Below are positions 722 to 41,147 of a stretch of 41,147 nt of DNA, piece by piece (position 1 is the stretch's first letter; each line of letters starts with the position of its first letter). Made by a program: the position numbers and the translations under genes. Where the stretch lies: positions 1-41,147 of IMG/VR virus record IMGVR_UViG_3300022939_001455, one strand, 5' to 3'. This DNA is from a virus. The notes below the pieces were generated by a model. The model did not search any database. It was not told the DNA's origin and saw nothing but the letters and a program-made list of their open reading frames with translations.

Positions 722-1543
722 ATGAAGGGTTTTAAAAAATATATCAATGAAACAGTTGGCGTGGGCGGTCTTGCGTATGAAGCAAAAGTACGTAAGTCTG
801 TAATTCAAACTTTAAAAAACAGAGCGTTTTCAAAAGATAAACGTATTACTCTTAAACCAGACAATGCTGGTGGATTTGCTTCTAATGTAGTAGATATGTA
901 CCTTACTTTAGATGGTAAAGATGTTCCTGTAGAAATTAAAATGGATAAAGATGCTCAAATGGGCGGACCATCTGTTAAGATTAATAAAGGAAAACCATAC
1001 GGACTTTCAAAAGCAGGTGAAGATCTTGAAGATGATGTACAAGAAATGATTATCAATGCTGTTAAGTCAAAAGAAAGACCTATCAGAAATTATATCAAGC
1101 AAATGAAAACGCTAGAGCCAATTGAGCTACATAAGCAAGCTGGCGTATACGAAGTTCCATTCAAAACAACAAAAGAAGCTTGGGCAATATTACAGAAAAA
1201 AGGTTTACTCAAACCTATCAATACTATAGTTAAATATAATACTAAATTTATTCATGATTGGTATGCAAGAAAAAAATGTTATTATATTCAAATTGGTAAA
1301 TTGGGTATGTTCTATTTACAAAAAAATCCATTAGGTTTAAAAATTCCACAACTTAAAGCAGATATAGAAATTTATGTTCGCTTGACTCGTTCTGGTTCTG
1401 GCGGAACTAAAGCATATCCAACACAAAGATCATCTCAAATCAGAGCAATTGCTAGTCTAAAAGTAAAAGGTGGTAAATCTCCATTATCTTTAGATAATCC
1501 AAAAGATGTAGAAGAAATATTTAATCAAATGATGAGCAAGTAA
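722..1543 (+). CDS. PD-(D/E)xK nuclease-like protein with capsid-targeting-like N-terminus
   Basis: A 273-aa protein not recognised as a named family. Residues E20, D58 and E71-I-K73, within beta-strand-like surroundings, fit the helix-E, D, ExK pattern of PD-(D/E)xK nucleases, so a DNA-cutting or DNA-binding role is possible. The N-terminus (MKGFKKYINE) resembles the short capsid-targeting sequences of T4 internal head proteins, and I8-N-E10 fits the I/L-x-E site of the T4 prohead protease gp21. A TATAAATA box lies just upstream, which fits late expression. The next gene at 1545 carries a similar nuclease-like signature. The fold and the packaging are both inferred from short motifs only. 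Confidence 0.5.
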   Translation: MKGFKKYINETVGVGGLAYEAKVRKSVIQTLKNRAFSKDKRITLKPDNAGGFASNVVDMYLTLDGKDVPVEIKMDKDAQMGGPSVKINKGKPYGLSKAGEDLEDDVQEMIINAVKSKERPIRNYIKQMKTLEPIELHKQAGVYEVPFKTTKEAWAILQKKGLLKPINTIVKYNTKFIHDWYARKKCYYIQIGKLGMFYLQKNPLGLKIPQLKADIEIYVRLTRSGSGGTKAYPTQRSSQIRAIASLKVKGGKSPLSLDNPKDVEEIFNQMMSK

Positions 1544-2594: not shown

Positions 2595-3827
2595 ATGGTT
2601 AGAACATTTAAACAACATTTAACAGAAGATAAAAATGTACATATGGAACACCTCGAAGATTCTATACTGAATCTTGGTGTTGATGGTACACGCTCTGCAA
2701 TTAATTTTTTGCGCAGTGTAAGAGATATGTTGGCAGGTAATGCTAAATCTGGTGTAAATGTAACAGTTAAATGGGATGGTGCTCCTGCAGTATTTGCTGG
2801 AACAGATCCTGAAGATGGTAAATTCTTTGTTGCGAAGAAATCAATTTTTAATAAAGTACCAAAAGTATATAAAACAAATGCTGATATAGATGCAGATACT
2901 GATGGTGATTTAAATGCTAAATTAAAACTTGCTTTAGCCGAGCTACCTAAACTCGGTATTAAAGGAGTTGTACAAGGTGATTTTTTATATGATAAAAAAG
3001 ATATTAAAACGGTTAACATTATGGGAGTCCCGCATATTACTTTCCATCCTAATACGATTGTTTACGCGGTACCTAAAGATAGTGACCTCGCGAAAGAAAT
3101 CCTCGGATCCAAGATCGGAGTGGTATGGCACACAACATACACAGGAAACTCAATTAAAGAACTGTCTGCTTCTTTTGGAAAAGAGATTGCAAGCGGTCTC
3201 AAAAAAACGAAAGGAGTCTGGTCAGTAGATGCTGTCTATAAAGATGTTTCTGGTAATGCTACAATGACTGGAAAAGAAACTGCTTTTGTTACTAAAAAGC
3301 TTTCAGAAGCTGGTATGTTATTTAGAAAAATTAAAAAAGAAACATTTAATGGTATTTCAGATAATCCTGATACATTAATGAGAGTTAAAACTTTTATTAA
3401 TACAAAAATTAGAGAAGGCCAACGAATTGGAAATACGAGAATATTTGTTAAGCAATTACAGGACTATATAAATAATGTATATCAAAAAGATGCAGACAAA
3501 AAGAAAACAGAGAAGGGTAAGGCAAGTTCGTTTGCAAAACGTGATGCAACTTTGGAGTATTTCAAAAAAACACCCGCATCTCAGATAACAATGATGTTTG
3601 ATTTGTATAATTTAATTATAGATATTAAACATATAATTATTAGTAAATTAGATAAAGCAAAGAGAATAGGAACGTTCTTAAGAACAGATAATGGTTATGA
3701 AGTAACAGAACAAGAAGGTTTTGTTGCAATCGATCACATGGGTAAAAACGCAGTTAAACTTGTTGATCGTCTTGGATTTAGTAGAGCTAATTTCTCAGAC
3801 AAATATATTAAAGGTTGGCAAAAATAA
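2595..3827 (+). CDS. Ligase-fold covalent nucleotidyltransferase (putative RNA/DNA ligase-like)
   Basis: A 410-aa protein with the spaced motifs of the ATP-dependent ligase/capping-enzyme superfamily: motif I K59-W-D-G62 (the lysine that would carry AMP), a motif III-like V-Q-G-D-F at about 126-130, motif IV-like E373-G-F-V, and motif V-like K387-L-V-D-R. A 100-200 residue insertion separates III and IV. The N-terminus (MVRTFKQHLTED) resembles T4 capsid-targeting peptides, with L9-T-E11 as a gp21-type cleavage site. This protein group is usually called unknown in marine phages. It could seal RNA or DNA or adenylylate another target. The ATG has no good Shine-Dalgarno. The stop abuts the next ATG. 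Confidence 0.6.
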   Translation: MVRTFKQHLTEDKNVHMEHLEDSILNLGVDGTRSAINFLRSVRDMLAGNAKSGVNVTVKWDGAPAVFAGTDPEDGKFFVAKKSIFNKVPKVYKTNADIDADTDGDLNAKLKLALAELPKLGIKGVVQGDFLYDKKDIKTVNIMGVPHITFHPNTIVYAVPKDSDLAKEILGSKIGVVWHTTYTGNSIKELSASFGKEIASGLKKTKGVWSVDAVYKDVSGNATMTGKETAFVTKKLSEAGMLFRKIKKETFNGISDNPDTLMRVKTFINTKIREGQRIGNTRIFVKQLQDYINNVYQKDADKKKTEKGKASSFAKRDATLEYFKKTPASQITMMFDLYNLIIDIKHIIISKLDKAKRIGTFLRTDNGYEVTEQEGFVAIDHMGKNAVKLVDRLGFSRANFSDKYIKGWQK

Positions 3828-4607: not shown

Positions 4608-5168
4608 ATGGGTATAATTCGTGACCGTGGTAATGATGGTGGCAATATTTGGAGATGGGACACTCTCATCAGATTCATTAAAGAAAACAATTATAAAACA
4701 GGCGCTGAACTTGGAGTGCACGATGGTGTAAGCTTCAAAAATATGGTAAAACGTTGTCCTGAATGTAATTTAGTTGGTGTTGATTTATATGAATCACAAC
4801 CAGAAAATAATGGTCCAGAAAAATGGACACCAGGCGAAAATGGACATGCTTGGGATCATAAACGTTATTACACAGATTTATTAAACTTTTGTCATAATCA
4901 TGATAACGCTGTTATTATTAAAGATTATACAACAAATGTCGCAGAACAATATCCAGACGGCCATTTCGATTTTGTATTTATTGATGCTGATCATGGATAT
5001 GAAGGTTGCTTAAGAGATATTAAAGCTTGGCACCCTAAAGTCCGTGAAGGCGGTAGAGTTATTGGTCATGATATTCACTTTCCTACAGTACAAAAAGCTG
5101 TTACAGAATTTTACGGAGAAAACTCTTGGAACACCGAAGATGATTTCATTTGGTGGATTCAAAAATAA
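4608..5168 (+). CDS. Class I SAM-dependent methyltransferase
   Basis: A 186-aa protein with a class I methyltransferase core: motif I around residues 26-31 (AELGVHDG, binding S-adenosylmethionine), an acidic end of beta-2 (GVDLYE), then a DFVFIDADHGYEG segment and a REGGRVIGHD strand. This pattern matches the Methyltransf_24 group, which often acts on sugars or small molecules. A GGAG Shine-Dalgarno precedes the ATG. Its stop overlaps the next start by one base, and it opens a four-gene cassette with two glycosyltransferases and a sulfotransferase, so a glycan substrate is likely. The exact substrate cannot be told. Confidence 0.75.
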   Translation: MGIIRDRGNDGGNIWRWDTLIRFIKENNYKTGAELGVHDGVSFKNMVKRCPECNLVGVDLYESQPENNGPEKWTPGENGHAWDHKRYYTDLLNFCHNHDNAVIIKDYTTNVAEQYPDGHFDFVFIDADHGYEGCLRDIKAWHPKVREGGRVIGHDIHFPTVQKAVTEFYGENSWNTEDDFIWWIQK

Positions 5169-5812
5169 TGATTGAAAAGAAACTTTCACAAATTTGGATT
5201 GGTCCAAAGCCTGCTCCATTAAAATGGATGTATACTTGGAGAGATAAACATCCAGGCTGGGAGTATTCTATTTTTACTGATGAAATGTTAAAATCTCGTA
5301 AGTGGCATAATCAACATTTAATAGAACATTATTATAATACTGCAAAATGGCCTGGCGTTTCCGATTTAATTCGTTATGAATTATTGTATGAACGGGGTGG
5401 ATTTTGGCCTGAAGCAGATATGGAATGTTTAAATGACACTACAGAATTATTTGTAGCACCTGACGATCATGCATATACATGTTATGAAAATGAAAAAGGT
5501 AGAGAAAACTTTGTACAACCAATTATGGCTGCTAATCCAGAAAATCAATTTGTTAAACATATAATTGATACACTTCATAAATTAAAACCACAAGATCTTA
5601 AAGAACCTTGGATGTCAACAGGGAATGCATTTCTTGCAAATCATGTTGTTAATTGGAAAGATAAATTAACTATATGGCCTTCACATTGGTTCATCCCTTT
5701 ATTTTATATTGGTGGAGCAAAGCGCTATGACGGACCTGATAAAGTGTATGCAGACCACAAATGGGGGTCCACAGGCCATGCAAATAGTGTATCATATGAT
5801 AGAGGAATATAA
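5168..5812 (+). CDS. Glycosyltransferase, GT32-like (DXD sugar transferase)
   Basis: A 214-aa protein resembling the short GT32/Gly_transf_sug group: IPKxIHQIW-type opening (here LSQIWIGPKP, residues 6-15), WEYSIFTDE, then SDLIRYELLYERGGFW at 65-80 followed by E82-A-D84, a variant of the usual metal-binding DXD. It would transfer a sugar from a nucleotide donor in the cytoplasm. I chose the ATG at 5168 because it overlaps the previous stop (TAATG) and starts where family members start; the TTG at 5150 would add six residues inside the previous gene. The Asp-to-Glu change in the DXD may alter metal use. Confidence 0.72.
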   Translation: MIEKKLSQIWIGPKPAPLKWMYTWRDKHPGWEYSIFTDEMLKSRKWHNQHLIEHYYNTAKWPGVSDLIRYELLYERGGFWPEADMECLNDTTELFVAPDDHAYTCYENEKGRENFVQPIMAANPENQFVKHIIDTLHKLKPQDLKEPWMSTGNAFLANHVVNWKDKLTIWPSHWFIPLFYIGGAKRYDGPDKVYADHKWGSTGHANSVSYDRGI

Positions 5813-6471
5813 TGTATATATCACACAAATATAAATTAATATTTTTAAGAACACCTAAAACAGCAAGTAGTAGTTTATCAGAATTTTTTATTAAAAATAT
5901 TCCTGATGATTACGCGATTTATACTCCAGTAGAAGATTCTAATATTCCTGGAACGTTAAATCCAGATATTATTAATAAGTATAAAATTAATTTTAAATAT
6001 TATCATTTTACATTAGAAGATTTAGTTAATAATGAAATTATAACAGAAGAACAAGCAAAAACATATAAATCATTTGCTGTTATAAGAGATCCAGTTGATA
6101 GACAAAAAAGCTTTTATTATTTCTATAAAAACTGGAAAGGTAGGCATTCACCTGCATCATTAGATGAATATAAAGCCTGGACTTCAAATGGTTCATTTAT
6201 TGGAGAACCAAACTCTGCTATTAAACAAACAGATATTCTTTCTATAAACGAAGAAATTATTGGTAATTATTGGTTATATGAAAACATAAATGATGAATTA
6301 AATAATCTTATGAATGAATTACATTTGCCTGTTAAGTATCCATTAACTAATCATAAAAATGGTTATAGAAAAAATAGAGATAATGAAATTGTATTTGATG
6401 ATCAGTCTATGAGTGATTTAAGAAATGCATTTACTAAAGACTTTGAAATATATGAAAGCTTACATTCTTAA
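5812..6471 (+). CDS. Sulfotransferase family protein
   Basis: A 219-aa PAPS-dependent sulfotransferase-like protein. Residues 13-21 (RTPKTASSS) match the 5'-phosphosulfate-binding loop (PKTGSTS type), and IRDPVDR near residues 91-97 matches the 3'-phosphate-binding motif. It would move a sulfate group from PAPS to a sugar or another hydroxyl. The start overlaps the previous stop by one base and the end overlaps the next gene by 20 bases, so the four-gene cassette is translationally coupled. Sulfotransferases are found in some marine phages. Acceptor unknown; a host or virion glycan is the reasonable guess given its neighbours. Confidence 0.75.
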   Translation: MYISHKYKLIFLRTPKTASSSLSEFFIKNIPDDYAIYTPVEDSNIPGTLNPDIINKYKINFKYYHFTLEDLVNNEIITEEQAKTYKSFAVIRDPVDRQKSFYYFYKNWKGRHSPASLDEYKAWTSNGSFIGEPNSAIKQTDILSINEEIIGNYWLYENINDELNNLMNELHLPVKYPLTNHKNGYRKNRDNEIVFDDQSMSDLRNAFTKDFEIYESLHS

Positions 6472-7135
6472 AATTGATACACCTATTTCAAATGAGTATG
6501 CTAAAACATGTGCAGACTCTTGTGATAAAGTAGGATTAAACTGGGAATATTTTAATGGATACCAAAATATGACCGGTGCTGCAGCATGGGGATTAACAGG
6601 TATTAAAACTCAATTTAATGAAGCTTATCGTTATATAGAAAATCCAAATGCTGCTCAAAAAGCAAATGCTTGTAGTGCTGGACATGCCGCAATATGGAAA
6701 AAAATTGCAGAAGGTCCAGATGATATTGGTATTGTATTAGAACATGATGCAATAATGCTTCAACCAATAACTATTCCTATTCCTGAAAATATGATTGTAA
6801 CTCTTGGTTATAAAATGCCAGATATAGAAAGATATGATCATGTTGCAGCAGGCCTTCCTACTGAAATTATTCCTATTCGTGGTCATGAAGGTGCGCATGC
6901 ATATGCAATGACTAAAAATACTGCGCAGTTTCTTGTAAACGAAATAGAAGCAAGAGGTGTTATGAGTGCAGTTGATAATGCTTATTTTATTATGGGACAA
7001 AGAAGTACTAGAGTTCCATTAGGAATAATGTCACCTACGCCTGCAATTGGTTGGTTAAGAGAATCAACAATCTGGGGTGGATCAGCATATAGAAACTATA
7101 ATTTTATACCTTCCTTTCAGGAAAATTATAAATAA
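6452..7135 (+). CDS. Glycosyltransferase, GT25-like
   Basis: A 227-aa protein resembling the GT25 (LPS biosynthesis) family: MKAYILKID opening, ACSAGHAAIWKKI at about 73-85 (family version ACxxSHxxxWKKI), V-L-E97-H-D99-A in place of the DXD-type LEDDA, and GAHAYAMTKNTAQFLV, which matches the family's GTxAYxISxxxAxxLL. I prefer the ATG at 6452 over 6425 because family members begin with this strand and the earlier ATG lies deeper inside the sulfotransferase. A TATAAATA box overlaps its stop and belongs to the next gene. It closes the glycan-modifying cassette. Confidence 0.68.
   Translation: MKAYILKIDTPISNEYAKTCADSCDKVGLNWEYFNGYQNMTGAAAWGLTGIKTQFNEAYRYIENPNAAQKANACSAGHAAIWKKIAEGPDDIGIVLEHDAIMLQPITIPIPENMIVTLGYKMPDIERYDHVAAGLPTEIIPIRGHEGAHAYAMTKNTAQFLVNEIEARGVMSAVDNAYFIMGQRSTRVPLGIMSPTPAIGWLRESTIWGGSAYRNYNFIPSFQENYK
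7127..7134 (+). promoter_or_regulatory. T4-type late promoter box TATAAATA
   Basis: Exact T4-late -10 consensus at the end of the GT25-like gene, 35 bp before the ATG at 7170. Placement is like the boxes before 722, 11792 and 15363, all putative head genes. Confidence 0.6.
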
Positions 7136-7169: not shown

Positions 7170-10100
7170 ATGGCAGACAAGCCAAAAAAGGGTAAAAAGA
7201 GTTTTAAGTCTTTTAACCCAAAGAACATTATTGACGTAAAACCAACACTTGATGAAGCTGTAAAGAAAACGGCTGTAATTAGTTTTGGTAGAATGAATCC
7301 AATTACTATTGGTCATGAAAAGTTAGTAGGAAAAGTTACTACAGAAGCTAGAATGAGAAAAGGAACTCCTATGATTTTCTTAACTCATTCAGAAGATGCT
7401 AAGAAAAATCCTTTATCATATAATGATAAAATTAAATTTGCTCAAAAAGCATTTGGTAAAATTGTAGTAAAATCTCCAGCAAGAACAATTATCGAAGTTA
7501 CTAAATATTTAACTGGTAAATATAGTAATCTAGTAATGGTTGTTGGTTCTGACAGAATTAAAGAATTTGAATCTCTATTAAACAAATATAATAATAAAGA
7601 GTTTAAATTCGACAATATAGAAGTAGTATCATCTGGCGATAGAGATCCAGATGCAGAAGGCGTAACTGGCATGTCAGGTACTAAGATGAGAGAATTGGCA
7701 TCTAAAAACGACATTACTGCATTTACTAAAGGCCTTCCTAATAGATTAAAACCCAATGCTAAACAAGTATTATTAGCAGTAAGAAAAGGTATGAATATGT
7801 CAGAAGAAAATATAGTAGAAGAGCAAGAATTAGACGAAGCTTTAAGTAGAATGGCTCGTCGTAAACGTTCAATCGCTGCAAGGAGAGCACGTTTTAGAAT
7901 GAAGCGTGGTAGAGAAAGAGCGAAAAAGAGAGTTGCTTCTTTAGATGTACTTAAAAGACGTGCTCGTAAAGCTGCTATTAAATTTTTTAAGAAAAGATTT
8001 ACTAAAGGTAGAAATTATAATACAATGTCTGCTGGAGAAAAAGAAATCATTGATAAGAGAGTAGAAAAGATTAGTAAAAAACGTTTAGACCAAATCGCTC
8101 GTAAACTTCTTCCGAAGATTAAGAGAAAAGAATTAGATAGACGTAAAGCTATGATGGCACGCCAAACTAAAAATGAAGAAGTACATTTAGAAGAAGCTTC
8201 AAAAGCTGATACTAGAGTTCGTAAGCGCCCACACATGATGATGGATTCAAAAGGAGCTGTTAAATTTGATGGACGTTTTAAAATTTATAAGAAAAAAACA
8301 GTTAATGAATCAGTTGAAGATGAAGTAGTAGATTTAATGGAATCTACAGAAGCTTTTGCCAATTCAGTATCACCAGAGCAAATTGATGAGTTATCAAAAG
8401 AAAAATTAGCGGGATATGAAAAGAAAGCTAGAACTTCTGCCATAGTTAATGCTCTTAAGTTTGGTAAAAAAGCTCATGATAAGTATAAGAAAAGAGAAGC
8501 TGGTTTAAAGAAAGCATCAAAGAAAACTGGTACTCAATATTCAAATGCTTGGAGGCATGAATCTAATGCTAGTGGCGAAAAAAATCTAGAATTAGATAGA
8601 GAAAGAGCTGCAAAAGCAAAATTAAAGCCTAATGATCGTGCTAAAATAGATGCGATCAAATCTATGATGAAACACGCAAATGAAGAAACACAAATTGATG
8701 AATTATCAAATGATCTTTTACAAAGATATGATGATGCTAAAGAGAAAAAACATAGACAACCTGATGGTTCAACGAAATATAAAAGTGTACATCAATCATT
8801 GAAACGTACTGTTGGTGGTATTCGTTCTTTAAAAAGACAAGCAGGTTTTAAAGCACCTACTAATAAAGTTTCAAGAGCAGATCACTTTGCTGCATACGGT
8901 AAAGATGGACATAAAGTTGTAGCAAAACATAATAAAAAAGTAGCAAGAGAATCAGTTGAATATGATTTAAACGAAGATGCAAAAGTTATTGCTCACTTAG
9001 TTAAAAAAGGTTTAAATCCTAAAGATGCTGCAGCTTCTACAAAGAAACATTTACCTTATGTTAAAAAAGCATACGGTAACCTTTCACCTGCTCAAGCTGC
9101 CGCAAAAGTCAGTATGGCAAGAGCAAATGAAGAAAAACAAATCGACGAATTATCAAAAGATACATTAAAATCATATCGAAAAAAAGCTGATAAATCAGCA
9201 GTTGATAGTTTAACAAGTAATGATCCTAAGCAAAAATTAAAATACGGGAAAAGATTAACTGGTATGGGTAGAGCAACTAAAAGATTGAATAAAGAAGAAA
9301 AACAAATTGATGAATTATCAAAAGATACTCTTATGAAATACTCTGATGCTGCTTCTAAAGATCTTATGAAAGCAGTACATGGTGATAAAACTTCTAACAT
9401 CTATAAAGTTAATAAAACCTCAAAATCTGGTAAACCATTAACAGTCCAAGGTATTAGACGTAGACAAAACAAAAAATTTGATAGAAGAACATCACAATCA
9501 GGTGATGCATATCGAAAAGCACAAGCAATGGAAAGTGTCGAGCAAATTGATGAATTATCAAAAGATACACTTGGTAGTTATATTGGAAAAGCAACTGATG
9601 ATAAAAAAGCTTGGAAAGATACTAGAAAAGCTTTTGCAAAAAAAGGTTATAAAGATCATGGATTTGAAAACTCAAAAATAGCAAAAAGAAATACGGGTAT
9701 TAAGAAAGCAGCATCAAGATTGACTAAAGAAGATACACAATTTGATGAATCAATACATCACGATATAGATCATTCAGATCCAGATTTTAAACGTCTATTG
9801 AAAAAACACAATGTTACTCATAGTGTAGTTAAGAGAGGTCCACAATCTGGTGATAGTATTAAATTACATGGTGATAAAAAGAATGTTCAACATGTTTCAA
9901 AGGTATTAAGAAACCCAGAACAGCATCAAAATGAAGCATGGTCTCCATTAAGTAAAGGCACTCAAGATCATATTGCTGATGTTCAACAAAAGAGAGCAAA
10001 TGATCTTAAGAAATTAAGAGATGCAAAAAGAGCTAAGAATCCTACTTTCATGGATAAGTTTAAAAAAGGATTTAAGAAAGAAGATACAGAACAATTAGAT

Positions 10101-10625
10101 GAATTAAATCCTTCAACATTAGGAAGATATAGTCGTGCAGCTGCAAGAGATGTGGGTATTACTAGTGATCATAAAAGAATTAAAAAGCGTCTAAAAGGTA
10201 TCGATAATGCTACTCATAAGCTTGCTATGAAAGCAATTAGAGGTGGCGTAAGAGAATCGAAAGTACCTTTTGATCCTCCATATAAAAAGGTTAAAAGCGG
10301 TACTACTATAGATAAATCAGGTGCTAAACATACTCCAATGTCTAAAGCTCGTCATTTAGCTCAAATGGCTATTAAACAAGCAATGGATAAAAAGCAGAAA
10401 AAAGAAGATGTAAACGAAGCTACTTGGAGTGTTGATGTTGCGGGCATGCCTAAATTTTATGTCGATGGTAAATCACAAGGTGATGTCAAAAAAGAACTAC
10501 GCAAATTAATCAAATCCGATAAAATTAAAGAAATTATAGTTAAAAGAGTTCAGCCGATCGAGGTTAGAAAAGATTTTAGACAAAGATCTCAAGATCCATC
10601 TGGTAAAGCAGAAACAGAAGAATGA
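7170..10625 (+). CDS. Nucleotidyltransferase fused to a repeat-rich putative internal-head polyprotein
   Basis: A 1151-aa, very Lys/Arg-rich protein. Residues about 34-200 form a cytidylyltransferase/NMNAT-like domain: G40-R-M-N-P, then T46-I-G-H49 (the T/HxGH signature) and SGTKMRELA as the ISSTxxR-type motif. The remaining 950 residues are basic, low-complexity segments separated by acidic stretches with Q-I-D-E-L-S (near residues 404, 508, 658, 712, 792) and variants (Q-L-D-E-L near 975, L-D-E near 219, Q-F-D-E near 857, L-E-E before 350). Each fits I/L-x-E, the cleavage rule of T4 prohead protease gp21. I infer a late, packaged polyprotein that delivers a nucleotidyltransferase plus basic peptides. 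An alternative is a scaffold-type core protein. Substrate unknown; NAD or nucleotide metabolism is plausible. Confidence 0.6.
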   Translation: MADKPKKGKKSFKSFNPKNIIDVKPTLDEAVKKTAVISFGRMNPITIGHEKLVGKVTTEARMRKGTPMIFLTHSEDAKKNPLSYNDKIKFAQKAFGKIVVKSPARTIIEVTKYLTGKYSNLVMVVGSDRIKEFESLLNKYNNKEFKFDNIEVVSSGDRDPDAEGVTGMSGTKMRELASKNDITAFTKGLPNRLKPNAKQVLLAVRKGMNMSEENIVEEQELDEALSRMARRKRSIAARRARFRMKRGRERAKKRVASLDVLKRRARKAAIKFFKKRFTKGRNYNTMSAGEKEIIDKRVEKISKKRLDQIARKLLPKIKRKELDRRKAMMARQTKNEEVHLEEASKADTRVRKRPHMMMDSKGAVKFDGRFKIYKKKTVNESVEDEVVDLMESTEAFANSVSPEQIDELSKEKLAGYEKKARTSAIVNALKFGKKAHDKYKKREAGLKKASKKTGTQYSNAWRHESNASGEKNLELDRERAAKAKLKPNDRAKIDAIKSMMKHANEETQIDELSNDLLQRYDDAKEKKHRQPDGSTKYKSVHQSLKRTVGGIRSLKRQAGFKAPTNKVSRADHFAAYGKDGHKVVAKHNKKVARESVEYDLNEDAKVIAHLVKKGLNPKDAAASTKKHLPYVKKAYGNLSPAQAAAKVSMARANEEKQIDELSKDTLKSYRKKADKSAVDSLTSNDPKQKLKYGKRLTGMGRATKRLNKEEKQIDELSKDTLMKYSDAASKDLMKAVHGDKTSNIYKVNKTSKSGKPLTVQGIRRRQNKKFDRRTSQSGDAYRKAQAMESVEQIDELSKDTLGSYIGKATDDKKAWKDTRKAFAKKGYKDHGFENSKIAKRNTGIKKAASRLTKEDTQFDESIHHDIDHSDPDFKRLLKKHNVTHSVVKRGPQSGDSIKLHGDKKNVQHVSKVLRNPEQHQNEAWSPLSKGTQDHIADVQQKRANDLKKLRDAKRAKNPTFMDKFKKGFKKEDTEQLDELNPSTLGRYSRAAARDVGITSDHKRIKKRLKGIDNATHKLAMKAIRGGVRESKVPFDPPYKKVKSGTTIDKSGAKHTPMSKARHLAQMAIKQAMDKKQKKEDVNEATWSVDVAGMPKFYVDGKSQGDVKKELRKLIKSDKIKEIIVKRVQPIEVRKDFRQRSQDPSGKAETEE
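8370..10150 (+). repeat. Diverged tandem protein modules with QIDELS boundaries
   Basis: Within the 7170 gene, the nucleotide words coding E/Q-Q-I-D-E-L-S-K recur near 8376, 8686, 9133, 9298, 9541 and, diverged, 10086. They are spaced about 160-450 bp apart, each followed by D-T-L-x-x-Y-like codons and then a Lys-rich region. The units are not identical, so they look like old duplications under selection rather than recent slippage. A further unit (VELDEISQETLKSY) occurs in the 11792 gene near 12958. Confidence 0.75.
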
Positions 10626-11755
10626 TTTCTTTTAAAAAACACCACGGCGAAACCTTAGAGGAAGGTGTTAACGATCCTGCTATTTTTAAAGTAGTCTTTA
10701 CGGCGGGAGGTCCAGGTAGTGGTAAGTCATTTACTGCTCATATGGCTGGTCTTGTTCCATTAGGTTTTAAAGTAATTAATATTGATCCAGCATTTGAAAA
10801 AATGATGAAAGATGCCGGTTTAGATACTTCTAAACCAAACGAAGTTTTTTCAGATAAAGGTCAACAAATCCGTAAACTTGCAAATAATGTTGTAGGTACT
10901 CAAAAGAAACTTGCTTTAGAAGGCCGTCTTGGTCTTTTAATCGATGGTACTGGTAAAGATTATAATAAAATTAAAAGTCAAGTAGTAGCATTTAGAAGAA
11001 TGGGTTATGAATGCGCTATGATCTTTGTTAATACTGATCTTGAAACAGCAATCAATAGAGATATAGAACGAGGTAAAGGACCTGGTGGCCGTACACTTGG
11101 AAAACCAATGGTAAGTAAAATGTGGAAAGATGTGCAAAAGAACATCGGTAAATTCCAAAACTTATTTAAAGGCCAAATGTATATTGTTGATAATAATGAA
11201 GGAACAGATATTAGACAAGCCACATTACCAGTATATAGAAAGATTTCTGCTTGGGCTAAAAAAGAACCTCGCATGCCACAAGCAAAAGCTTGGATTACTG
11301 CAGCAAGAATGAAAAAAGAAGAGCATGGAGCAGGTGATAGAGGGACAGACGAATTAGTAAGTAATTTTAAAGCAGATACTCCAGGTGAAAACGGTAAAAA
11401 AGTAAAAATTACTAAACCTTCTACAAATGACGAATTATTACAAGAAGGTATTGCAAAAGACTTGCTCAAAGATATTGCAAAGATTGCAATAGGTAAAAAA
11501 CGTTTCCATGATTTAAAACGCATGGTTAATAAAGACAAATATAAATTTGCTGTTACTCAATATAGAAAAATGAAAAAAGATGTTAGAAGTTCTGGTGGAC
11601 CAGAAAAATGGATTAATAAACATGGATTGGGTAGAGGTGCAAGATTAATGCCAGGTATGTTAGATAATTATTTAAAAAATACTGCAGCAGATTTAGCAGG
11701 CATTACTCCAAAAGAGTTCAATGCGGTTTTAAATAGAAACACAAGATATAAGTAA
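10622..11755 (+). CDS. P-loop kinase (zeta-toxin-like) with capsid-targeting-like N-terminus
   Basis: A 377-aa protein with Walker A G29-G-P-G-S-G-K35-S near the N-terminus, an INIDPA strand that resembles the substrate-side Asp of zeta-toxin/UDP-GlcNAc kinases, and a FVNTDLETAINRD segment with lid arginines (RDIERGKGPGGR). It would phosphorylate a small molecule or nucleotide using ATP. The last 150 residues are basic and have no known domain. The N-terminus (MISFKKHHGETLEE) resembles T4 capsid-targeting peptides, with L12-E-E14 as a gp21-type site. The start overlaps the 7170 stop by four bases (ATGA), so it is co-translated with that head-type polyprotein. Packaging is inferred. Confidence 0.65.
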   Translation: MISFKKHHGETLEEGVNDPAIFKVVFTAGGPGSGKSFTAHMAGLVPLGFKVINIDPAFEKMMKDAGLDTSKPNEVFSDKGQQIRKLANNVVGTQKKLALEGRLGLLIDGTGKDYNKIKSQVVAFRRMGYECAMIFVNTDLETAINRDIERGKGPGGRTLGKPMVSKMWKDVQKNIGKFQNLFKGQMYIVDNNEGTDIRQATLPVYRKISAWAKKEPRMPQAKAWITAARMKKEEHGAGDRGTDELVSNFKADTPGENGKKVKITKPSTNDELLQEGIAKDLLKDIAKIAIGKKRFHDLKRMVNKDKYKFAVTQYRKMKKDVRSSGGPEKWINKHGLGRGARLMPGMLDNYLKNTAADLAGITPKEFNAVLNRNTRYK

Positions 11756-11791: not shown

Positions 11792-13630
11792 ATGAAATCA
11801 TTTAACAGTTTTAAAGAAGCTATGGATCCGGTTAATAAAGCGGCTCTTAAAAAGAAACATAAAGAGCGTAAAGACCAAGATATTAATAATGACGGTAAAG
11901 TTAACGATACTGACAAATATTTACATAACCGCCGTCAAGCAGTAACACAACAAATAGGTGAAAAATTAAAAGCTTCTGATGATATGGGTAAGTGGATTGA
12001 TGATTTCCAAGACTCTGATGCACCTCAATTTAAAGGTAAGTCCAAAGAAAAGAAACGCCAAATGGCTATTGCAGCTAAGCTAGATGCAGAAAAAAATGAA
12101 AGTTATAAGTCATATGCTCAACAAAAAGCAGTATGGGCATCTCGTAAAGATGGTGGTAAAGGACATCCTGATAATAAAAAGAAAAATGAATCAAACGTTG
12201 AAGAAGCTAAGAAAATGAAAGGCGAAGATCCTTGTTGGGATAGTCATGAAATGGTGGGCATGAAAGATAAGAATGGTAAGAAAGTTCCGAACTGTGTACC
12301 AAAAAATGAATCAGCAGAAAACAGAGTTGACGTAATTAGAGCAGTAGCTCAAAAAATTGCTATGGAAAAAGAAGCAAAAAGAAAAGCGGCTGAGAAAAAA
12401 GCAGAAGCTGATGCTAAAAAAGCAATGGCTAATGAATCAAAAGATCCAAATAGATATGATGATGGTCCAGGTGTAGATCCAAATAGATATGATGATGGTC
12501 CAGGCGTAACACCTAAAAAGAAAAAGACTATAAAAGAACTATCAAATAAAACACAGAGCGAAGGATATACAGGTGGTCCTCATGATGCTGATTGGGTTAA
12601 TAAATCTGAAAAGTTAGAAAGAGCTAGAAATAGAGCTAAGAGAATGGGTGATCATAAAAAACACGCAGAACTAGATGCTCAAATTAAACAACACTATAAG
12701 CGCGGACCTGGTGTGCGTGAAGCAGTAGATCCACAGGATAAAGGTGAGTATGATGATGAGGGTGGTATGGCACAAACTCAAATCAATAAAATCATGGATG
12801 CTGCAAAAGAATTAAAAGGTATAATCGGTAAAGACGATAATCTACCTGAGTGGGTGCAATCTAAAATGACTAAAGCATCTGACTACATTGATGGTGTTCG
12901 TGATTATCTTAAAAACAAATCAGACACTAACGAAGCAACTATGCCTTATACTGAAGAAGTAGAGCTCGATGAGATTTCACAAGAAACTTTGAAGTCATAT
13001 AAGAAGAAAGCAACATCAGATGCTGTTACTAATATGATTGGCGGTCAAGGTTCTGTTAAGAGACTAGACAAGAGAATCAAAGGCATGAAAATGGCTGATA
13101 AAAGATTAAATAAAGAAGATTATAAAGAAATATTTTTAAATTATATTTCTGAAAATACTCTTACTTTAGAAGATCTTAATAACTTTAATGATGAGCAACT
13201 TGATGAAATGATTGGTCAAGCAATGAAAAGCGCTGGCCGTATGACTGCAGATAAAAGAGCAGATGCCGCTGAGAAAAAAGCTAAGTCATTACAAAATCAA
13301 GTAAAAGATGTTGCAAGATTAAAAAAAGCTAGAAATGCTCAAACAAAAGCTAGATTAGCATTGAGAAATGCAAGACGTAATGTTGCATCAGCTAGAGCAG
13401 CAATTAGAACTGAAAGTAGTTGTGGAAGTAAAAAGAAGCACATGAAAGAGGCAGGACCGAATCCTACAGGTGGCGCAACTAATGCTACATCTGGTTCTAA
13501 ATCAACCACAAATACTACAAAGCCTAGTACTGCTAAAAAAGGAACAGTTTTAAGAAAAAGCTATTCTAAAAAAGATCTATCGACTCCAGCGAAAACTGCT
13601 ACGCCGATTGATTTAACTGTACAATTTTAA
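11792..13630 (+). CDS. Modular, EF-hand-like, putative internal-head polyprotein
   Basis: A 612-aa Lys/Ala/Asp-rich protein. It opens with MKSFNSFKEA, like T4 capsid-targeting peptides. D30-x-N-x-D34-G-x-V-x-x-x-D41 is a good EF-hand/dockerin calcium loop. Further parts are a Cys-containing DPCW..VPNC segment near 147-170, a tandem 11-residue repeat near 218-239, a module at about 317-375 (EYDDEGGMA to YLKN), a QIDELS-like module (V-E-L-D-E-I-S, about 390) shared with the 7170 protein, and a Ser/Thr/Lys-rich tail. I recall similar modules scattered through marine T4-like phage proteins annotated as hypothetical or prohead-like. It has its own late-type box. A head-packaged, protease-processed protein is inferred. 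Confidence 0.5.
   Translation: MKSFNSFKEAMDPVNKAALKKKHKERKDQDINNDGKVNDTDKYLHNRRQAVTQQIGEKLKASDDMGKWIDDFQDSDAPQFKGKSKEKKRQMAIAAKLDAEKNESYKSYAQQKAVWASRKDGGKGHPDNKKKNESNVEEAKKMKGEDPCWDSHEMVGMKDKNGKKVPNCVPKNESAENRVDVIRAVAQKIAMEKEAKRKAAEKKAEADAKKAMANESKDPNRYDDGPGVDPNRYDDGPGVTPKKKKTIKELSNKTQSEGYTGGPHDADWVNKSEKLERARNRAKRMGDHKKHAELDAQIKQHYKRGPGVREAVDPQDKGEYDDEGGMAQTQINKIMDAAKELKGIIGKDDNLPEWVQSKMTKASDYIDGVRDYLKNKSDTNEATMPYTEEVELDEISQETLKSYKKKATSDAVTNMIGGQGSVKRLDKRIKGMKMADKRLNKEDYKEIFLNYISENTLTLEDLNNFNDEQLDEMIGQAMKSAGRMTADKRADAAEKKAKSLQNQVKDVARLKKARNAQTKARLALRNARRNVASARAAIRTESSCGSKKKHMKEAGPNPTGGATNATSGSKSTTNTTKPSTAKKGTVLRKSYSKKDLSTPAKTATPIDLTVQF
12443..12508 (+). repeat. 33-bp direct tandem repeat, two copies
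   Basis: Two adjacent in-frame 33-bp units (12443-12475 and 12476-12508) differ at one base (GTGTA versus GCGTA near the end). Each encodes the 11 residues DPNRYDDGPGV. The near-identity means a recent duplication inside the 11792 gene. Confidence 0.95.
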
Positions 13631-15362: not shown

Positions 15363-15635
15363 ATGTCTTTAGAGAAAATTGTAGCGGAAGCGATGGCAGG
15401 CCGCCCACTAGAAATGAAAGAAGCTTTCGAGGAAGCTATCGAAGAGCGCATTCAAGCAGCATTAGAAGCTAAAGTAGCTGAAATGCAAGCAGGAGATGCT
15501 GAAGAAGAAGTCACAGAAGATGCTGACGTTGAAGATTCAGAAGCGACTGAAGATCTAGACGAAGCAAAAGATTGTGATGACGACGAAGACGAAGATGATG
15601 AAGACGAGGACGAAGACGAAGACGAAGATAAGTAA
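15363..15635 (+). CDS. 67: Prohead core protein, gp67-like
   Basis: A 90-aa extremely acidic protein. The N-terminus (VAEAMAGRPLEMKEAFEEAI) is helical, and the last 35 residues are almost only Asp and Glu. This matches the size and layout of T4 gp67 (about 80 aa), a small acidic component of the prohead scaffold that gp21 degrades on maturation. A late-type box and AAGGAG precede it. In T4 gene 67 is followed by 68, 21, 22 and 23, but here none of these follows. The acidic tail alone is not specific, so another acidic scaffold or DNA-mimic protein remains possible. Confidence 0.55.
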   Translation: MSLEKIVAEAMAGRPLEMKEAFEEAIEERIQAALEAKVAEMQAGDAEEEVTEDADVEDSEATEDLDEAKDCDDDEDEDDEDEDEDEDEDK

Positions 15636-23825: not shown

Positions 23826-25382
23826 ATGGCGATTGTAGATTGTTTTCCATTTTTTGCACCTTACGGTGAAGAGCTTCTTTATTTACGTGTTAACTTATTA
23901 AAAGATCATGTAGATAAATTTATTATTGTTGAATCAAATAAAACTCATAGTGGTAAACCAGTAGAAAGAAAGTTTATGGAAATTGCTCGTAAGCTTGGAC
24001 TTCCTATTGAAAAGATTCATTATGTAGAGCATGATATTCCCGAAACAAAAGACTTACAAATTTTAGAAATTGATAAAAGAAATGCGGGAGTAAATGCAAA
24101 TAATACTGAATCATTATATGCTCGTGTAAGAGAACGCTTACAAAAAGATGCTGTAATGATGGCAATGCAAGATTTCCAACCTGATGATGTATTCATTTAT
24201 GGAGATGCTGATGAGATTATTAATCCACAACATATTAAATGGGTAGCAGGATTAGCAAAAAACAATCCAGGAATTCTTGTAAAAATTCCATTAGTATATT
24301 TGCAAGGCCGCGCAGATTTAAGAATCCATCATAGAAATGGTGCTCCTGTTGTTTGGTGGAAAGCAATGTTTTTTGCAACTAAGCAAAAAATTATGGAAAA
24401 TAAAATTAGTAATATGAGATGTGGAAACGTTTCTATGCCAGTACAACATCCAAGACATAATGGAGAAGTAATACAAGATATGGGTTGGCACTTTGCTTGG
24501 ATGGGAAATAAAGATCAAAGACAAACTAAAGCAGATTCATTTGCTCATGCATATGACAGCTTTAAATGGATGGATACAGGCGAAGGCTATTCTGATTATA
24601 AAAAGTTTGTAGATACAACTGCACCTATTGAAGGTAATGTTGCTCCGGATGGAAACAAAGATCATGTATTAAAAAGATATCCGCATTCGTCATTACCAAA
24701 ATTAATATTTGAAAAGCAATGGATTAAAGATTTCTTATTACCTGAAGTTAAATTAGATGAGCCATTTGCATTTAATGATTGTCATTGTTATTGGTGTCAA
24801 AAACTAGAGTTTCCTTTAATGTATCAATTAGATAAAGAAGGTAAACAGACTTGGTTTGAAATTCCAAGAAGTTGTTCTGTAACAATGAAAGAAAGTTTTC
24901 CAGATCGTCAACAGGTATTGCGCAGTACAAAGCTATATAAAGACCTTGCTAAAAGAAGCAAGCCAATTGTTGTATGGACAGATCCAGTTGATAGATTTAT
25001 TTCTTTAATTAATGTATTTGTTGTTCCTAAACAAAGATACTGGGATTATGGAGATAATCTTTTTCAATCGTTCGATGTAAAATTAGAAGATTGTACTAAG
25101 CAAGAAAAAATAGATTATTTCTTTGCAAATATGAATAAAATTAATTCTTTTCATCAAGTACATCACTTTCATCCACAGTGTAGATTTGTTGATACAGATA
25201 ATTTTAAAGAATTTACAATCATTAAAAGAGAAAATTTAAATAAAGAATTAAATATTGATTTGCATTATAATGCTACTGAAAAAGAAATCACCAAAGAAGA
25301 TTTAACTAAAGAGCAGATAGAATTTATTAAACGAGCATACGCTAGCGATTACGAGTTTATTAAAAAATATGGCAAAGAATGA
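23826..25382 (+). CDS. GT17-like glycosyltransferase fused to sulfotransferase-like domain
   Basis: A 518-aa two-domain protein. Residues 1 to about 290 match GT17 (beta-1,4-mannosyl-glycoprotein GlcNAc-transferase family): VDCFPFF opening, LLKDHVDKFIIVESNKTHSG, and YGDADEI as the likely metal site. From about residue 310 the protein changes: E-I-P-R-S-C-S-V-T-M-K at about 345-355 resembles the PAPS 5'-phosphosulfate loop and W-T-D-P-V-D-R-F near 384 the 3'-phosphate motif of sulfotransferases. It could add a sugar and sulfate it. The stop overlaps the next gene by 14 bases. The GT17 call is firm, the second domain moderately so. Confidence 0.75.
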   Translation: MAIVDCFPFFAPYGEELLYLRVNLLKDHVDKFIIVESNKTHSGKPVERKFMEIARKLGLPIEKIHYVEHDIPETKDLQILEIDKRNAGVNANNTESLYARVRERLQKDAVMMAMQDFQPDDVFIYGDADEIINPQHIKWVAGLAKNNPGILVKIPLVYLQGRADLRIHHRNGAPVVWWKAMFFATKQKIMENKISNMRCGNVSMPVQHPRHNGEVIQDMGWHFAWMGNKDQRQTKADSFAHAYDSFKWMDTGEGYSDYKKFVDTTAPIEGNVAPDGNKDHVLKRYPHSSLPKLIFEKQWIKDFLLPEVKLDEPFAFNDCHCYWCQKLEFPLMYQLDKEGKQTWFEIPRSCSVTMKESFPDRQQVLRSTKLYKDLAKRSKPIVVWTDPVDRFISLINVFVVPKQRYWDYGDNLFQSFDVKLEDCTKQEKIDYFFANMNKINSFHQVHHFHPQCRFVDTDNFKEFTIIKRENLNKELNIDLHYNATEKEITKEDLTKEQIEFIKRAYASDYEFIKKYGKE

Positions 25383-40087: not shown

Positions 40088-41147
40088 TGGCAATTACTAA
40101 AAGAAGTGATAAAGGATCAGCGCTAACTTATACGGAGATGGACGATAACTTTGATGCTATCGCTCCACGCACAAGTGCTAATGGTTCTATTCAAATTCCA
40201 GCAGGTACAACAGGAGAAAGAGATAGTTCTCCTCAAGTCGGTTATTTAAGATATAACACTTCAACATCAAGCTTCGAAGGTTATATTAACGGTTCTTGGT
40301 CAGGAGTTGGTTCTGGCGGAGGAGCAGCAGGAGCACAAGGTGTTCAAGGTATTATAGGTTTACAAGGTACCGATGGAGCAGCAGGATTAAATGGCTCTAA
40401 CGGTATTCAGGGTGTACAAGGACCAGCTGGTGGTGGTGTTGGTGGTGGCGCTCAAGGTGTACAAGGACCTCAAGGTGTAGAAGGTTCTGGAGGAGATCCA
40501 GGTATTCAAGGTCTTATAGGTAATCAAGGTACACAAGGATTAACAGGAGCTGGTGGAACCGGACCACAAGGTGTTCAAGGTTTTGATGGAACTGGCTCAC
40601 AAGGTGCACAAGGTACTGACGGTGGTTCTGGTTTACAAGGTATTCAAGGTCCTGCCGGATCAGGCGGTGTTGGTGGTGGCTCTCAAGGTATTCAAGGACC
40701 ACAAGGTTTACAAGGTGGTGAAGGTCCTGAAGGTCCTGCTGGTGACAGTATTCAAGGTACACAAGGTACTGATGGAACTGGTGGTCAAGGTACACAGGGT
40801 ATTCAAGGTGGTCCAGGATTTGGAGCTCCAGGTCCTCAAGGTATTCAAGGTACTGAAGCACAAGGTATTCAAGGTATTCAAGGTGATTTAGGACCTGCTG
40901 GTTTTGGTGCTCAAGGTCATCAAGGTGTACAAGGTAATATAGGTCCAGGCGGAACCGGACCACAGGGTGTTCAAGGATTTACTGGACAGGGTGTACAAGG
41001 TAATATAGGTCCAAATGGTCCTGATGGCCCACAAGGTATTCAAGGTATTCAAGGCCCAGAGGCACAAGGTATTCAAGGTAATATTGGTCCATCCGGTGTT
41101 GGTGTTCAAGGTATTCAAGGTACAAGCATACAAGGAATTAAAGGTTT
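40087..41147 (+). CDS. Collagen-like tail fibre protein (partial)
   Basis: An open frame from ATG 40087 runs off the window (353 codons seen). Residues 1-75 (AITKRSDKGSALTYTEMDDN, then YLRYNTSTSSFEGYING) are the typical start of phage fibre proteins; from about residue 80 the protein is a long Gly-x-y repeat, mostly GxQGVQG, GIQGPQG and GPAG units, a collagen-like triple-helix arm of at least 270 residues. It should form a trimeric fibre that contacts the host. The C-terminal receptor-binding part is outside the window. Confidence 0.9.
   Translation, partial: MAITKRSDKGSALTYTEMDDNFDAIAPRTSANGSIQIPAGTTGERDSSPQVGYLRYNTSTSSFEGYINGSWSGVGSGGGAAGAQGVQGIIGLQGTDGAAGLNGSNGIQGVQGPAGGGVGGGAQGVQGPQGVEGSGGDPGIQGLIGNQGTQGLTGAGGTGPQGVQGFDGTGSQGAQGTDGGSGLQGIQGPAGSGGVGGGSQGIQGPQGLQGGEGPEGPAGDSIQGTQGTDGTGGQGTQGIQGGPGFGAPGPQGIQGTEAQGIQGIQGDLGPAGFGAQGHQGVQGNIGPGGTGPQGVQGFTGQGVQGNIGPNGPDGPQGIQGIQGPEAQGIQGNIGPSGVGVQGIQGTSIQGIKG

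Follow-up and report, generated by a model that had tools for sequence, protein, structure and literature searches.

What kind of protein does the modular open reading frame (ORF) at positions 11,792–13,630 encode, and where would its parts act? The ORF lies in a 41,147-base fragment of the virus record IMGVR_UViG_3300022939_001455, referred to here as the window, whose genes are arranged as in T4-type marine phages: a DnaB-like helicase, then mostly unknown genes in a block, then primase, nrdA and nrdB. Its product (the 11792 protein) is probably an internal polyprotein packaged in the head of such a phage (Kyanoviridae-like) and cut at module boundaries by a gp21-type protease. The precursor would be recruited into the prohead core, aided by an N-terminal leader like the T4 capsid-targeting sequence, and the gp21-type prohead protease would then cut after (I/L/V)xE sites at the module boundaries. 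The resulting basic, mostly helical pieces would stay alongside the DNA inside the head and might later be ejected into the host. Each site forms one unit with the module that follows it, so that modules could be gained, lost or rearranged by recombination while processing stays intact. The features of the ORF are as follows (↓, predicted cut).

11,792–13,630, plus strand: putative modular cargo polyprotein ORF, 612 amino acids (aa), ATG start (ORF call; homologous modules in relatives)
11,792–11,818, plus strand: leader MKSFNSFKE↓A, resembling the T4 capsid-targeting sequence (T4 rule, PMC9026906)
11,879–11,914, plus strand: EF-hand-type loop, D30–D41 (consensus conservation)
11,954–11,962, plus strand: predicted protease site IGE57↓K58, ahead of the KWIDDF module (module boundaries across relatives)
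11,963–12,097, plus strand: KWIDDF module, aa 58–102 (107 hits, 30 distinct contexts)
12,197–12,205, plus strand: predicted protease site VEE138↓A139, ahead of the C-x19-C module (module boundaries across relatives)
12,206–12,307, plus strand: C-x19-C (DPCW..VPNC) module, aa 139–172, with C148 and C168 (module profile; relatives detected by mass spectrometry, MS)
12,442–12,508, plus strand: 33-bp tandem duplication encoding DPNRYDDGPGV twice (2.0 copies, 97%)
12,713–12,721, plus strand: predicted protease site VRE310↓A311, ahead of EYDDEGGMA (module boundary)
12,740–12,922, plus strand: EYDDEGGMA (GGMA) module, aa 317–377 (76 hits, 29 distinct contexts)
12,965–12,973, plus strand: predicted protease site LDE394↓I395, ahead of IDELS (sequence motif)
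12,974–13,117, plus strand: IDELS module, aa 395–442, common with the protein of gene 7170 (alignment)
13,199–13,207, plus strand: predicted protease site LDE472↓M473 (sequence motif)

The sequence-only reading had presented this ORF as a modular mosaic with five named features, all of which are present, two of them under labels that need correction. The loop (D30-x-N32-x-D34-G35-x-V37-x-x-x-D41) follows the EF-hand-type consensus D-x-[DNS]-x-[DNS]-G-x5-[DNE], to which 16 of 18 non-redundant EF-module copies conform and which suggests calcium binding. Its alternative designation as a dockerin is rejected: the match to dockerin type I (Pfam PF00404, Dockerin_1) scores 13.9 bits, short of the 22.9 set as its cut-off, and there is a single loop only. 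Likewise, the DPCW..VPNC segment, with 117 hits in 44 distinct upstream contexts, is conserved as a module but is not Cys-rich, as the whole protein contains three cysteines (148, 168 and 544). The GGMA module is conserved as supposed. The VELDEIS element said to be shared with the 7170 protein represents homology across about 55 aa, beyond the short (Q/E)-L/I-D-E-L/I-S motif: residues 388–457 align with residues 654–721 of the 7170 protein at 42% identity (best E = 5e-9), and other copies in the 7170 protein span residues 388–452, 788–855 and 975–1018. Since a scan of viral contigs with the IDELS region yielded nothing beyond one contig with a 100% match, the boundaries of this module rest on few contexts (8). 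The near-identical 33-bp duplication is real, with a single-base difference between its copies, and the doubled DPNRYDDGPGV was seen only in contigs with 100% protein identity to the 11792 gene. In contig L002 (935–967) only one copy matches the pattern exactly, and because the protein repeat is nevertheless intact, the duplication varies silently among near-identical viruses. A further module, absent from the earlier list, covers residues 57–102 (KLKASDDMGKWIDDF...); this KWIDDF region is the most informative of all modules.

The modules are shuffled among relatives. In a tblastn search of phage records, pieces of the 11792 protein matched different genes, with no more than 12% of the protein matched per place, and scans of viral contigs yielded additional loci with these modules. 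Profiles of five modules (EF, KWIDDF, C-x19-C, GGMA and IDELS) and three domains or families (NMNAT, kinase and DUF6267) were used, and architectures were compared in 234 non-redundant proteins. The many architectures in this set bear out the suggestion that cassettes are shuffled between proteins: C-x19-C occurs before or after KWIDDF at a ratio of 8:8 and before or after GGMA at 6:9, and GGMA and KWIDDF are found in both orders at 5:3. Altogether, six module pairs were seen in both orders, which rules out a fixed module order without sharing. The EF-loop module is itself an interchangeable cassette, one of several, and is absent from many related proteins. Homologues of window gene 14385 illustrate clearly how a cassette is gained or lost: in two contigs (L005:3755-4750 and L009:9791-10663) their conserved flanks enclose KWIDDF, which follows FLSE↓K or NLIE↓K and is accompanied in L005 by C-x19-C. 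GGMA is found elsewhere as a stand-alone protein of 75–106 aa that starts with MKNFKQFLE↓A, MKNFKTFIE↓S or MKKFKSFLE↓A. Another shared cassette, ACYHKVK(S/A)RY(S/D)VWPSAYASGALVKCRK, was noticed in the virion proteins S-SCSM1_29 (L179:42662-44215) and S-CREM2_160 (L086:24343-25236), in the latter immediately after ISE↓G.

Module starts coincide with sites of the kind recognized by the T4 prohead protease gp21, which cuts after L/I-x-E (PMC9026906). For KWIDDF (n = 30 contexts, deduplicated at 50% identity over the 18 residues ahead of it), E occupies P1 in 29/30 contexts and I/L/V occupies P3 in 25/29 (p = 4e-13), of which the P3 count alone is fully independent, the P1 residue being the first of the search profile; as background for P3, 22% of all E residues in these proteins have I/L/V two positions earlier. 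Positions P2, P4 and P5 show no preference (only 3–4/29). The kinase domain of the gene 10622 family starts right behind [ILV]xE↓G in 13 of 14 contexts, following an N-terminal leader in some proteins and lying internally, behind an NMNAT domain, in others. Hydrophobic-x-E[AEGNDS] precedes C-x19-C in 22/43 contexts (0.48 in shuffles), and [IL]xE lies within 20 aa upstream of DUF6267 in all 22 distinct leaders (6.2 in shuffles) and of NMNAT in 27/39 (6.6 in shuffles). Across the module proteins, [IL]xE is 1.66-fold enriched (z = 14), and the spacing controls [IL]E, [IL]xxE and [IL]xxxE show no enrichment in the same proteins. Sites and modules are thus coupled in the sequences compared here, and the transferable unit appears to be "protease site + module".

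The same motif could be read in another way, in which the protein is packaged without internal cutting: (I/L/V)xE would represent repeated docking signals for core or capsid, at most the leader would be removed, and the whole protein would serve as flexible basic filler or scaffold. In the 7170 protein the repeats are conserved before as well as after QIDE-LS, as would be the case in a helical repeat, and the 11792 protein is basic (isoelectric point 9.5, charge +32), with a low-confidence, helical AlphaFold model of the whole chain (mean predicted local distance difference test score 58, predicted template modelling score 0.21). Furthermore, the 11792 protein taken by itself has no significant excess of [IL]xE motifs (6 vs. 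3.2 expected, z = 1.7), and for this reason our argument rests on the boundaries across relatives. However, conservation of P1 and P3 upstream of KWIDDF together with variable P2, P4 and P5 looks like a protease subsite pattern, and for KWIDDF, the kinase and C-x19-C the same site ends an N-terminal leader in one phage and is internal in another. We regard an uncut filler as unlikely, if the foremost of the rivals.

Polyprotein packaging and cleavage, the reading we prefer, draws further on virion proteomes of relatives. Virion proteins of the cyanophage S-SCSM1 were identified by MS (PMC9602691), and in its matching block before primase/nrdA, seven of nine genes (89–93, 95 and 97) are labelled virion protein, compared with 2 of 210 other genes outside two structural clusters (hypergeometric p = 3e-10). 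Genes 154 (NMNAT), 155, 156 and 160 were detected in S-CREM2 virions (PMC10665884), and genes 136, 139 and 140 (NMNAT) of the same block in those of S-SZBM1 (PMC9146016). An NMNAT-like protein was detected in all three virions, its leaders being MKSFLQFLKE↓A, MKNFSSFLTE↓A and MRFRQFIIE↓A. Among the modules, C-x19-C occurs in MS-detected proteins of the three cyanophages (S-SCSM1_29, S-CREM2_160 and S-SZBM1_139) and EF in the MS-detected S-SCSM1_92; window genes 3828, 7170 and 13675 also have homologues that are virion proteins. The virion location of relatives is well supported, and we infer that the 11792 protein is likewise packaged and perhaps ejected. The earlier hint at a polyprotein fits the module starts at (I/L/V)xE sites and the virion relatives, with cleavage itself predicted.

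In the ten-residue capsid-targeting sequence of T4 IPIII, residues 4 and 7 serve targeting, and 8 and 10 processing (PMC9026906). As the strict T4 leader pattern matches only 4 of 99 module proteins, we used a relaxed pattern with a control: it matches 20/99 module proteins vs. 9/610 S-SCSM1 ORFs (p = 5e-12). A Peptidase_S77 protease (PF03420) is encoded by the relatives Melnitz, S-SCSM1 and S-CREM2 (E of 2.9e-31 or better), and close to the N-termini of their major capsid proteins lie LSE↓A, LTE↓A or LAE↓A, sites that by analogy to T4 would mark the mature capsid ends. The stretch behind the predicted capsid cleavage site of S-CREM2, LLTE↓APTQAVGADGFTGAAAPGGPNAGFDPVM, recurs in S-CREM2_160 (AGATGFTGAAAPEGPVAGYDPLM) and in the virion protein S-SCSM1_97 (AVGAGGFTGSSAAEGPTAGYDPLM) (L086:14482-15852 and 24343-25236; L085:13122-13307), and might be a capsid-docking or protease-recognition module. 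A pattern search for this capsid "post-cleavage arm" motif in cargo proteins gave few instances (10). Among the S-CREM2 virion proteins, the Cas9-like nuclease gp12 (L087:4705-7314) has a leader-like RFASFMAE↓A near its N-terminus, a segment that looks compatible with head packaging.

Detection in virions could also arise if the 11792 protein were a late intracellular protein merely co-purifying with particles, its modules being host-takeover domains that act outside the head. Co-purification was named as a possibility for virion-associated enzymes by the authors of the S-CREM2 study (PMC10665884). Nevertheless, the block was found in three independent proteomes, the virion-protein label in S-SCSM1 is enriched in this block relative to other genes outside the structural clusters, and the leaders match T4 capsid-targeting sequences, so that we consider this explanation quite improbable. 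A calcium-dependent adhesion or scaffolding protein of the dockerin/EF-hand kind on the virion surface would accord with the well-conserved EF-hand-type loop, yet with the dockerin match below its Pfam cut-off, one loop only, and a loop module that is interchangeable and missing from many relatives, it is the least probable reading.

Several observations weigh against the favoured polyprotein, in addition to the insignificant motif count, the partly circular P1 count and the co-purification caveat. The leader of the 11792 protein has F4 and F7, but its P3 is F rather than L/I and its E stands at position 9. At several of its other boundaries the sequence is KNE↓S or TNE↓A; these deviate from the T4 consensus, and their cleavage would require this phage to have a protease less strict than gp21. 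Control proteins of the window show a mild [IL]xE enrichment too (1.34-fold, z = 3.1), and the DUF6267 protein of S-SCSM1 (gene 257) has no virion-protein label. The 41-kb window contains no head genes; as it is a fragment of this kind, the phage's own protease is not seen. Cleavage of the 11792 protein itself is a prediction from its sequence and that of its relatives.

Several neighbouring genes start with a leader resembling the T4 capsid-targeting sequence or have a domain placed behind a site of this kind.

722–1,543, plus strand: gene with a complete T4-type leader pattern, MKGFKKYINE↓T (sequence)
2,595–3,827, plus strand: DUF6267 protein with leader MVRTFKQHLTE↓D (family match, leader scan)
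7,170–10,625, plus strand: several IDELS modules that follow an NMNAT-like domain, itself placed after TLDE↓A (domain and module profiles)
10,622–11,755, plus strand: P-loop kinase domain matching Zeta_toxin/AAA_33, immediately after MISFKKHHGETLEE↓G (domain match)

In the last of these, the kinase domain follows the N-terminal leader, ending in TLEE↓G. Four small genes lie within the cargo block at 4,608–7,135, between gene 3828 and the NMNAT gene; one is glycosyltransferase-25-like (PF01755) and the others are methyltransferase- or transferase-like by eye. A 90-aa protein with a very acidic C-terminal Asp/Glu run (15,363–15,635) gave no match in a family search, and a tail-fibre-like ORF at the window end contains collagen-like tandem repeats of the GIQGTQ type (40,748–40,884).

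In a broader version of the polyprotein reading, to which we give about an even chance, such phages would use a plug-in delivery system: cassettes of site and domain would be strung together in polyproteins, packed into the head, cut into NMNAT, kinase, EF-hand, C-x19-C, KWIDDF and other pieces, and injected with the DNA. Relatives of the 7170 protein occur in 533 phage records, mostly of cyanophages, and for many genes associated with them the only annotation is hypothetical protein. If these proteins are head cargo set free by the prohead protease, a leader or (I/L/V)xE before a domain would be a readable address label, so that the packed and possibly early-injected proteins of such phages could be listed from sequence, and the T4 model of one leader for one protein would be extended to a polyprotein with exchangeable cassettes.

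Our literature search, which was of incomplete coverage, found no description of a cassette polyprotein or of this protease-site organization; the known systems compared here resemble it in part. The giant phages such as SPN3US have many packaged and ejected head proteins, some of them cut by a prohead protease (PMC10052503); they belong to another phage group and are likened here by description only. Virion NMNAT/cytidylyltransferases of the cyanophages S-SCSM1, S-CREM2 and S-SZBM1 share a homologous enzyme domain, the same syntenic block and detection in the virion, but were published as single virion-associated enzymes. The T4 core proteins gp22, gp67 and gp68 undergo several gp21 cuts, resembling the multiple internal gp21-type sites predicted here; however, they are core or scaffold proteins, and most of their fragments are lost from the head (PMC9026906), whereas the 11792 protein is a variable, shuffled mosaic with relatives that include enzyme domains. 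T4 IPI, IPII, IPIII and Alt share a short targeting leader, an (L/I)xE cut, core packaging and variable proteins behind a shared leader (PMC9026906), but have terminal propeptides only, in contrast to several cassettes per ORF with predicted sites between them and cassettes common to several proteins and phages. The nearest known kind is the T4 internal protein with its capsid-targeting sequence, from which the 11792 protein differs in being laid out as a polyprotein, with cassettes that can be exchanged and internal sites predicted between them.
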